The notes under the pieces: generated by a model
Databases searched by the model: none
The model's input: only the letters and a program-made list of their open reading frames with translations
What the model was told of the DNA's origin: nothing
In this document: one piece after another, positions 2,828-35,108 of the stretch
Layout of the letters: the number at the start of each line of letters is the position of its first letter
How positions within the stretch are numbered: position 1 is the first letter of the stretch
Origin: Candidatus Saccharimonadota bacterium
Lineage (GTDB): Bacteria > Patescibacteriota > Saccharimonadia > Saccharimonadales > UBA10212
DNA: 36,023 nt
Reading direction: 5' to 3'
Assembly (NCBI GenBank): GCA_025934715.1
Contig: JAICWR010000005.1
Span: 1-36,023, forward strand
Position numbers and translations under genes: made by a program

Positions 2828-4591
2828 ATGGATGAAGACAAAAAAACCGAAGAAAAAGCAATAGAGACACAAGCGCCTGAAGATTCCGCAGCCGGGCAGG
2901 TGGATCCGGAAAAACCGGCTGCCGGCGGTTCTAAATGGGGGCGTTTTAAAGACTGGTATGGCCTGCGCAAGAAGTGGACCATCCCACTCAGCATCCTGCT
3001 GCTTATCTTGATACTAGCCGCCATCCCTTTCACCCGTTATGGATTAGCCGGCACAGTGCGCAAGGATAACATCGAGCTGAAAGTGACTGATGCCACAGCT
3101 AATACTCCAGTGAGCGGCGCAACCGTCCATATCGGCAATTTATCCGCCGAAACAGATAGCGCAGGTGAAGCGACATTGCATGGCGTCAAGGCCGGAAGCC
3201 ATAGCGTCACGATAACTAAGAATTACTACCAGCCCAGCACCGTCAAAATACTGGCGCCGATATTCAGCCAAAAAGCCATACCGGAGTTCCAGCTGACTGC
3301 CACCGGCCGCCAGGTCAAAATAGAGGTGACTAACCTGATTGATAAAACAGCCCTATCGAATGTGAATATAAGATTCACTGATACTTCGGCCAAGACTGAC
3401 AAGACAGGTAGCGCCACGGTCGTGCTACCGGTCGGCGAAGCCACACAAGGCGCGACTTTGAGCCTGCCCGGCTACAATGACGCAAGGGTCACCGTAAAGG
3501 TCAGCAATGACAAAATCCAGGACAACCAATTCAGCCTGACGCCTGCCGGCGAAATTTATTTCCTGTCCAACCTCAGCGGCAAGATCGATGTTGCCAAAAC
3601 CAACCTTGACGGCAGCGGCCGCCAAACTGTCCTGGCAGGCACGGGCAACGAAGACGACAGGAACACGGTGCTGTTAGCTTCGCGCGACTGGAAGTATTTG
3701 GCCTTGCTATCGCGCAGGGCCGGCAACACCCCGACGCTCTACCTGATCAACACGACTAATGACGGGCTCACCGCCATCGACACCGGCAGCTCTGATTTCA
3801 ATCTGGCCGGCTGGGTGAATGGCGATTTCGTCTATACGGTGACCCGCGACAATCTACAGCCCTGGCAGCCAGGGCAGCAAATTATAAAAAGCTACGACCC
3901 CGTGGCTAAAAAGCTGACAACCCTTGACCAGACCAGCGCCTCTGGCACCAGCCCCTTTGATTACACGGCCCAGCATATCGGGAACGTTTATGGCAACGAC
4001 GGCAAGGTCTACTATACGAAAAGCTGGAACGGCACCAGCCCGGCCGGGCTGGCCGATAAGCAAGCCACCTTTAATTCAATCAACACCGACGGCAGCGGCA
4101 AAACAGCAATCAAATCCTTCTCACTTAAGCCCAACTCGACTGACACAGCCATCAACCTTAGCGCCCAGCTGGTCGGGCCGGACAAAACTGAGCTGTATTT
4201 CTTTGATAGCGCCAGCGATAACTTCTATAGCTACTCCGGCGGACAGGTGGCGGCTGACAAAACTGAAACCCCGGACAACTTCTATAACAGTTTTTACGCC
4301 ACTTACCTTTTGTCGCCGTCTGGGAACAAGACTTTCTGGAGCGAACCGCGTGACGGTAAAAACACTTTGTTCACCGGTGACCAGAACGGCCAGAATCCTA
4401 AACAGATAGCCACCCTGAGCGATTACTCGCCGTACGGCTGGTACACCGATAGTTACCTGCTGGTGTCGAAAAATTCCAGTGAACTCTATATTATGGCCAA
4501 AGATGGGTCACAGACGCCGGTTAAGATAAGCGATTACCATAAACCGGCTCAAACATTTAATGGTTATGGAGGAGGTTACGGCGGCCTATGA
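2828..4591 (+). CDS. Single-pass membrane protein with carboxypeptidase-regulatory/PEGA-like and TolB-like beta-propeller-type repeats
   Basis: 587 aa; acidic N-tail, TM segment (WTIPLSILLLILILAAIPF), 'VTDATANTPVSGATVHIGNLSAETDSAGEATLHGVKAGSHSVTI' and C-terminal DGxxxxxI repeats. Confidence 0.75.
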   Translation: MDEDKKTEEKAIETQAPEDSAAGQVDPEKPAAGGSKWGRFKDWYGLRKKWTIPLSILLLILILAAIPFTRYGLAGTVRKDNIELKVTDATANTPVSGATVHIGNLSAETDSAGEATLHGVKAGSHSVTITKNYYQPSTVKILAPIFSQKAIPEFQLTATGRQVKIEVTNLIDKTALSNVNIRFTDTSAKTDKTGSATVVLPVGEATQGATLSLPGYNDARVTVKVSNDKIQDNQFSLTPAGEIYFLSNLSGKIDVAKTNLDGSGRQTVLAGTGNEDDRNTVLLASRDWKYLALLSRRAGNTPTLYLINTTNDGLTAIDTGSSDFNLAGWVNGDFVYTVTRDNLQPWQPGQQIIKSYDPVAKKLTTLDQTSASGTSPFDYTAQHIGNVYGNDGKVYYTKSWNGTSPAGLADKQATFNSINTDGSGKTAIKSFSLKPNSTDTAINLSAQLVGPDKTELYFFDSASDNFYSYSGGQVAADKTETPDNFYNSFYATYLLSPSGNKTFWSEPRDGKNTLFTGDQNGQNPKQIATLSDYSPYGWYTDSYLLVSKNSSELYIMAKDGSQTPVKISDYHKPAQTFNGYGGGYGGL

Positions 4592-4929
4592 CATTTGACG
4601 AATACCAAAAACAGGCGATAAGCACGGACGTCTATGGCGGACAGGGCGATATCATGTCGATTGCTTTCATAAACAAAGTGCTGGGCTTGGTCGGCGAGGC
4701 CGGCGAAGTGGCCGAAAAAGTCAAAAAACTGCAGCGTAACAGTGAGGGTTCAATGACAGGCAAAGACCGGGATGAGTTGCTAAAAGAGCTCGGCGACGTG
4801 CTCTGGTATTTGAGCGCCATCGCCCATTATTTGGAAGAACCGCTGGGAAAAATCGCCGATAATAACCTTTCCAAATTGAAAGACCGTAAAGAGCGCGACG
4901 TTATCGCCAGCTCTGGCGACAACCGCTAA
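4588..4929 (+). CDS. MazG-like nucleotide pyrophosphohydrolase
   Basis: GLVGEAGEVAEKVKK...KELGDVLWYLSAIAHYL matches the MazG EExxE...ExxD architecture; ATG overlaps previous stop (ATGA). Confidence 0.88.
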   Translation: MTFDEYQKQAISTDVYGGQGDIMSIAFINKVLGLVGEAGEVAEKVKKLQRNSEGSMTGKDRDELLKELGDVLWYLSAIAHYLEEPLGKIADNNLSKLKDRKERDVIASSGDNR

Positions 4930-27986: not shown

Positions 27987-28098
27987 CAATTTTGCGTATC
28001 GGGGCGCTAGCGACCGTACGCAAAATTGAGAGGAGAAGGCGAGGCCGTAAGTGAGCGAATTCAGTAGCTCACGGAAGCCGTTGCCTCGACTCCGACGA
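27987..28098 (+). ncRNA. Candidate structured tRNA leader element, copy A (upstream of tRNA-Lys)
   Basis: 12-bp perfect stem CAATTTTGCGTA/TACGCAAAATTG with 18-nt loop TCGGGGCGCTAGCGACCG, then AGAGGAG, second hairpin GTGAGC/GCTCAC, then CTCCGACGA abutting the tRNA. Homologous element at 35050..34933 (-). Confidence 0.6.
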
Positions 28099-28175
28099 GG
28101 GCCCATAGCTCAGTTGGTTAGAGCAGCGGCCTTTTAAGCCGCGTGTCGTGGGTTCGAATCCCACTGGGCCCTCCA
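28099..28175 (+). tRNA. tRNA-Lys(TTT)
   Basis: GGGCCCA acceptor, D-arm GCTC..GAGC, anticodon arm GCGGC-CTTTTAA-GCCGC, T-arm GTGGG-TTCGAAT-CCCAC, TGGGCCC, encoded CCA. Confidence 0.97.
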
Positions 28176-34856: not shown

Positions 34857-34932
34857 TGGTGGGGAAGGCAGGATTTGAACCTGCGACCAATCGGTTATGA
34901 GCCGACTGCTCTAACCACTGAGCTACTTCCCC
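34857..34932 (-). tRNA. tRNA-Met(CAT) (elongator-like; Ile2 not excluded)
   Basis: Minus strand GGGGAAGTAGCTCAGTGGTTAGAGCAGTCGGCTCATAACCGATTGGTCGCAGGTTCAAATCCTGCCTTCCCCACCA; anticodon CAT, encoded CCA. Confidence 0.95.
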
Positions 34933-35050
34933 TCGTCGGAGCCGGGGCAATGGCCTCCATAAGCGCACTAACGTTTGCTTATTACAGCCTCGGCCCGTCT
35001 CCTCCTCTCAATTTTGCGCACGGTCGCTAGCGCCCCGATGCACAAAATTG
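34933..35050 (-). ncRNA. Candidate structured tRNA leader element, copy B (upstream of tRNA-Met)
   Basis: Minus strand CAATTTTGTGCA-TCGGGGCGCTAGCGACCG-TGCGCAAAATTG, AGAGGAG, hairpin ATAAGC/GCTTAT, GGAGGCCATTGCC, CTCCGACGA abutting the tRNA; same order as copy A. Confidence 0.6.
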
Positions 35051-35108
35051 CCAAAGCTACAGGGGTAATTATATCAGCTACAAAGATAAACTATATAATA
35101 GATATTAG

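Follow-up and report, generated by a model that had tools for sequence, protein, structure and literature searches.

What kind of sequence stands between a promoter and a tRNA gene, ends exactly where the tRNA begins, and recurs on the opposite strand of the same contig? We addressed this question for a 36,023-nucleotide stretch of a Candidatus Saccharimonadota bacterium (contig JAICWR010000005.1, assembly GCA_025934715.1; hereafter the window), in which a segment with two hairpins (copy A) abuts the gene for tRNA-Lys(ttt). A sequence-only reading had proposed a structured 5' leader and pointed to a like-ordered copy before tRNA-Met on the other strand. On re-reading the sequence, all of its coordinates for copy A agreed, the tRNA-Met copy (copy B) was found on the minus strand, and the two were seen to differ as described in ways that keep pairing: in the first hairpin, P1, a T-A pair becomes C-G and a C-G pair becomes T-G, and in the second two G-C pairs become A-T (Table 1). 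That second hairpin is present but had to be redrawn as the tip of a longer compound stem-loop, P2/P3, which runs from AGAGGA to just before GACGA. Both copies therefore read, from 5' to 3', long hairpin P1, AGAGGA, compound P2/P3, GACGA and tRNA position 1. We found this P1-AGAGGA-P2/P3-GACGA anatomy to show covariation, to meet gene ends at an exact junction, to occur on either strand and to be gained and lost quickly. Our favoured reading, to which we give about an even chance, is that it represents a structured, strand-autonomous element of the ultra-small Patescibacteria that spreads both inside a genome and from one genome to another, its 3' end (GACGR) lying flush with the end of a tRNA or transfer-messenger RNA (tmRNA) gene.

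When the 714-kb home genome (G000) was searched with short words, about 12 copies came up, mostly 5' of tRNAs. We built a covariance model, R1, from six home-genome copies and a broader one, R2, from 70 sequences, the E-values of which are rough. In the window, R2 scored the two copies at E = 5e-27 and 5e-21, with the next non-overlapping match at E = 0.2, and it identified 13 copies in the home genome. R1 had matches in 32 of 100 relatives, and R2 in 79 of 295 genomes of the order and in 25 of 380 across the phylum, other classes included; because these wide searches scored 9-36 candidates per genome, the element counts are lower bounds. The element is ~115 nt long (R2 matches are mostly 82-142 nt), and strict-pattern matches among named records came from metagenome-assembled genomes of Candidatus Saccharibacteria/Saccharimonadales. 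The covariance-model search suggested by the sequence-only reading thus uncovered further copies, most of them exactly 5' of tRNA genes, and these together with the model scores rule out chance or a coincidence of two copies. Rfam 15 likewise bore out that the family was not recognised as a known one: the whole window had no matches except tRNA, and for the element alone the best match, to a microRNA family, reached 12 bits (E = 9.7), with none at or above gathering score. Viral carriage was rejected, since two strict patterns had 0 matches in IMG/VR and 33 viral stretches having a 15-mer in common (303 kb, also our negative control for R2) contained no element, the best R2 match being at E = 0.58.

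Folding copy A together with its tRNA gave -91.7 kcal/mol (z = -5.9), a stability equalled by 0 of 200 shuffles, and the six closest copies folded without tRNA gave z values from -2.6 to -5.8. Covariation, which had been named as a check on further copies, proved strong. In an alignment of 95 copies, itself fitted to a model, two-sided compensatory change occurred at 40 of 40 modelled pairs, pairing cells amounted to 91.6% compared with 69.5% in shuffled and 30-44% in slid controls, and the covariation score was 0.554 as opposed to 0.189 (shuffled) and at most 0.100 (slid). An initial six-sequence alignment built structure-free already had two-sided changes at 8 pairs. With covariation above both kinds of control, the element is a structured non-coding RNA by this measure. 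Outside the helices AGAGGA and GACGA are near-invariant, and the A at position -4 of the leader is invariant; RNase P protein is known to prefer A at this position. The two motifs would pair as GAGGAG/CGACGA, in which G-C pairs alternate with tandem sheared G.A pairs, and would in this way lengthen P2 up to the tRNA. The inner part of P2 falls into at least three types: type I (GGCUGAAAGUAAGC/GCUUACGGAAGCC), type II (GCCGAAGCUUUUGCC/GGCAAAACGAGGC) and one more that was seen in a different family of the order.

Placement was assessed for 163 distinct copies. A same-strand tRNA position 1 follows 115 of them, at distance 0 in 99 and within 4 nt in 16, with nearly all isotypes represented. Seven further copies adjoin tmRNA by sequence, which with one already assigned to tmRNA by ARAGORN makes about eight, and Rfam confirmed tmRNA 3' of several copies. 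Another six stand before a cut, intron-bearing or truncated tRNA, 14 are antisense to a tRNA with their 3' end at the tRNA 3' end, usually at the encoded CCA (junction GACG/TGG), and 21 lie at other places, a few of these too preceding tRNA genes that are cut or truncated. Three near-complete genomes have 45 elements between them, 31 of which adjoin position 1 and occupy 12 of 41, 7 of 38 and 12 of 43 tRNA genes. Copies were also found in the leader of an Hsp20-like gene just 5' of the Shine-Dalgarno sequence (locus L055; gene name from sequence reading), in another mRNA leader (L179) and, in two genomes of the window's genus, at the end of a gene that reads like htrA (L032, L107; name likewise from sequence reading). 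A purely tRNA-specific leader is contradicted by the tmRNA, opposite-strand, mRNA-leader and gene-end copies.

Several loci merit description in their own right. At L061, L067, L069, L087 (copy at 1763), L113, L122 and L123 a 5' tRNA fragment comes after the element, down to ~13 nt long and in several cases ending TAGCTC, with a complete tRNA 45-210 nt further on that is of the same kind as the fragment in several cases. At L079/L196 the tRNA behind the element is interrupted by a group I intron (Rfam), and the interrupted tRNAs behind the element at L121, L149 and L166 look similar by sequence. Gene annotation is affected because leaders occur beside such truncated tRNA pieces and intron-bearing tRNAs.

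TATAAT-like boxes lay 12-26 nt 5' of P1 in 64 same-strand copies, compared with 24.5 +/- 4.7 in shuffles. Home-genome tRNA genes that lack the element have the same promoter (TATAAT-tACCYCTGTT-an) directly before the tRNA, and in the window the box of copy A is weaker than that of copy B. As the hairpins lie 3' of the likely start site, they are expected within the tRNA precursor; the promoter spacing is indirect support that same-strand copies are transcribed from the tRNA promoter as a 5' leader, and agrees with the earlier proposal that leader and tRNA are co-transcribed. It also disfavours a start site within CTCCGACGA, one of the outcomes that had been named as refuting that proposal. An intrinsic terminator was likewise discarded: in the window copies neither P1 nor P2 has a U-run after it, and the tRNA is downstream.

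Across all aligned copies G.U pairs outnumbered A.C mismatches 193 to 77. At loci with opposite-strand copies (15 model hits) the count on the element's own strand was 26 G.U to 4 A.C, although fitting an alignment to a model may favour G.U, and over half of the G.U cells come from three copies. This bias on the element strand, antisense to the tRNA, indicates that the functional strand is set by the element and not by the tRNA.

Occupancy turned out to be patchy between close relatives. When orthologous tRNAs were compared within one genus (orthology rests on flanking matches for some pairs and on isotype alone for others), Val-GAC alone had the element in both species, with P1 differing but compensated; at Arg-CCT, Ser-GGA, Glu-CTC, Lys-CTT, Arg-TCT, Phe and Pro-TGG it was present in one of the two species only. 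The 30 tmRNA loci with the highest scores, of which 28 could be read as far as the gene start, include five with the element by the model and one with a P1-less version; most had a short leader, and sister species differ on whether tmRNA has the element. A poorly resolved tree of 85 copies displayed no isotype grouping (36 changes) and weak genome grouping (48 changes), so that grouping by tRNA isotype was dropped, save for Val-GAC in one genus. Copies are moreover mosaic: in the home genome one P1 apex is combined with differing P2 types, and in genome G005 (L180, 366-555) a single P1 is common to two outward elements that reach the tRNA-Phe 3' end and the tRNA-Leu 5' end. Two further observations concern individual sites. 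An inverted element occupies the same tRNA-Thr(cgt)/tRNA-Gly(ccc) spacer in the home genome (L016) and in G015 (L197), which represent two genera; the P2 types of the two differ, a sign of a possible hot spot or in-place replacement. The tRNA-Pro-TGG of G015 (L217, ~4545-4660, minus strand) has an unrelated ~110-nt leader instead of the element, with a similar promoter before it.

We favour the spreading element because of the exact junction, the two orientations, the own-strand polarity, the patchiness and the mosaic structure. A mobilising or copying machinery would recognise the fold, a feature we single out because fold polarity goes with the element and not with the tRNA. RNase P would cut at the GACGA/+1 junction and free the element, and this removal would make the tRNA 5' end a harmless harbour. 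Several points weigh against such spreading: neither a transposase nor a target duplication nor a conserved 5' target turned up, the home genome has no Y1_Tnp gene and none of ten Y1_Tnp loci inspected elsewhere is flanked by the element, the flanks of most filled/unfilled orthologue pairs are too diverged for a base-exact empty site, the Val-GAC copies with their compensated changes suit a host function at that site, and movement itself was not observed.

The main rival is a functional cis-acting 5' leader, in which P1 would cap the transcript, P2 with its G.A-rich base would set the RNase P site or tune maturation or supply of the tRNA or tmRNA, and gene conversion between tRNA genes would account for the spread. 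The exact position-1 junction in 99 copies, the presence before tmRNA (likewise an RNase P substrate), promoter spacing and covariation, the invariant A at -4 and the orthologous Val-GAC copies all speak for it, but only about a quarter of tRNA genes are occupied, by a set that differs between sister species, most tmRNA genes lack the element, and opposite-strand copies with their own polarity, as well as copies in mRNA leaders and at gene ends, also speak against it. We regard it as possible though rather doubtful, and it is compatible with domestication of some copies. Of the original proposal, a structured 5' leader acting on the tRNA, the covariation holds, and so, for most copies, does the position 5' of tRNA; given the other sites and the patchiness among sister species, no dedicated role in the maturation, stability or expression of the tRNA is proven, and any such role could only be an optional one.

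Alternatively, a structured selfish RNA or DNA element of a new class might be copied via mature tRNA/tmRNA ends, used for instance for docking, priming or as a template-switch partner. This is unlikely, yet it would explain why the 3' end lies at the tRNA 5' end or at the encoded CCA, on the corresponding strand. Similarly unlikely is an independent trans-acting small RNA that uses the tRNA only for its 3' end, RNase P freeing an RNA that ends in GACGA. Its own promoter region, the discrete conserved domain and 3' terminus, the core motifs common to copies before different tRNAs and the own polarity on either strand fit this idea; opposite-strand copies, however, meet an antisense tRNA at which no RNase P cut is expected, and P1 and P2 vary widely among copies of one genome, which would be odd for one trans-acting RNA. 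Slightly less probable still is a miniature element moved on single-stranded DNA by an IS200/IS605-type (Y1, HUH) transposase or one associated with repetitive extragenic palindromes (REPs). It would suit the hairpins, which have short conserved motifs to either side, and the 3' GACG, whose complement CGTC resembles the tag of CGTC REPs (PMC3733652); Y1_Tnp is also loosely associated with the element, being commoner in carriers (24 of 50 versus 9 of 50 genomes, p = 0.003, uncorrected for kinship). Yet the home genome combines 13 copies with no Y1_Tnp, Y1 transposase was not found as a flanking partner at the ten loci, no 5' target is conserved, and the element is far larger and more complex than REPs.

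Table 1. Positions of both element copies, their parts and the adjoining tRNA genes in the window.
Feature	Position	Strand	Basis or remark
Copy A, whole	27987-28098	+	directly 5' of tRNA-Lys(ttt)
Copy A, hairpin P1 (12-bp outer stem, conserved apex ATCGGGGCGCTAGCGACCGT)	27987-28028	+	sequence, fold, covariation of all P1 pairs in relatives
Copy A, P1 stem arms	27987-27998/28017-28028	+	sequence; enclose 18-nt loop TCGGGGCGCTAGCGACCG
Copy A, AGAGGAG	28029-28035	+	sequence
Copy A, near-invariant linker AGAGGA	28029-28034	+	conserved columns across 95 copies
Copy A, compound stem-loop P2/P3	28035-28093	+	fold, covariation
Copy A, second hairpin GTGAGC/GCTCAC inside P2/P3	28051-28056/28067-28072	+	sequence
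Copy A, CTCCGACGA	28090-28098	+	sequence; last piece before tRNA-Lys
Copy A, near-invariant 3' terminus GACGA	28094-28098	+	directly adjoins tRNA position 1, at the expected RNase P site
tRNA-Lys(ttt), adjoined by copy A	28099-28175	+	followed by terminator-like hairpin and T run
Copy B, whole	35050-34933	-	directly 5' of tRNA-Met(cat)
Copy B, hairpin P1	35009-35050	-	pair-preserving differences from copy A; fold
Copy B, linker AGAGGA (35008-35003) and stem-loop P2/P3	34938-35008	-	sequence, fold, covariance model
Copy B, 3' terminus GACGA	34933-34937	-	flush with tRNA-Met position 1
tRNA-Met(cat), adjoined by copy B	34857-34932	-	tRNA calls
TATAAT box 17 nt 5' of copy B P1, then TACCCCTGT	35068-35073	-	like home-genome tRNA genes that lack the element

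Two other sequences were seen at tRNA and tmRNA genes. At L018, L027, L184 and L043 a second repeat lies just 3' of the tRNA (CCA-CGTCAC/CGCATC..AATATCAGCCCCGCTAGAAATTTC, hairpin loop AATCAAGTGG), possibly a terminator-like trailer family. Directly 5' of tmRNA in G004, G012, G048 and G011, genomes of different genera, we noted a different, larger leader of ~150-170 nt (L246, L255, L259 and L264; ...CACAAGG...GGAAGA...GACA-CAGC...UUUCG/GGGGCUGA, the slash marking the junction), the two ends of which are able to pair and which had no Rfam match beyond tmRNA itself.

If the favoured reading is true, an undescribed element sits at the exact processing junction of up to about a quarter of the tRNA genes in some lineages, and of tmRNA, in a phylum that is among the largest and least cultivated of the bacteria. 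One would then have to ask by what means a small non-coding element can recognise the ends of tRNA genes on either strand, and whether processing by RNase P is a general safe harbour for parasites or regulatory leaders in reduced genomes. We found no description of this element in the literature, most subscription papers lying outside the coverage. It fits no named-family definition among those tested, although a sceptic could class it as a variant of dispersed hairpin repeats.

The nearest described repeats, to which literature searches added nothing closer, are the CGTC-tagged REPs, single hairpins of 20-40 bp with 8-9 bp stems that form four families and mostly follow coding genes (PMC3733652). 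Like these, the element is dispersed and structured, bears a conserved tetranucleotide on just one of its ends (here GACG), occurs in head-to-head pairs and has no dedicated transposase gene. A REP, however, consists of one palindrome of 20-40 bp that carries an unpaired tag on one side (PMC3733652), and only the terminal GACG/CGTC resembles this; the element is ~115 nt long and made of two domains, has internal loops and AGAGGA as a near-invariant partner motif, and prefers tRNA/tmRNA ends. Nor does it match the arrangement of REPs with their associated transposase (RAYT), a Y1 gene flanked by repeats as is true of GTAG REPs, given its absence from all ten Y1_Tnp loci and the lack of such a gene in G000. 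Terminal inverted repeats, as in miniature inverted-repeat transposable elements, were not seen in the copies, and the flanks of orthologous sites are too diverged to judge duplications. With T-boxes it would share a structured, transcribed leader and tRNA-related biology, but T-boxes precede synthetase or amino-acid genes and bind tRNA in trans; the element adjoins tRNA/tmRNA genes instead, as the sequence-only reading had pointed out for tRNA along with the missing T-box landmarks, and neither it nor the window has an Rfam T-box match. Ordinary pre-tRNA 5' leaders also lie between promoter and tRNA position 1 and are expected to be removed by RNase P; unlike them, the element is long, folded and covarying, and occurs as well beyond tRNA operons and, in antisense, at the 3' end of tRNAs. 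Finally, eukaryotic tRNA-targeting retrotransposons (such as Ty1, Ty3 and DGLT-A) are kilobase-sized, autonomous and aimed at the Pol III machinery. Insertion near tRNA genes as a safe harbour would be common to both, whereas the element described here is non-coding, bacterial and placed exactly at +1 or at the tRNA 3' end.
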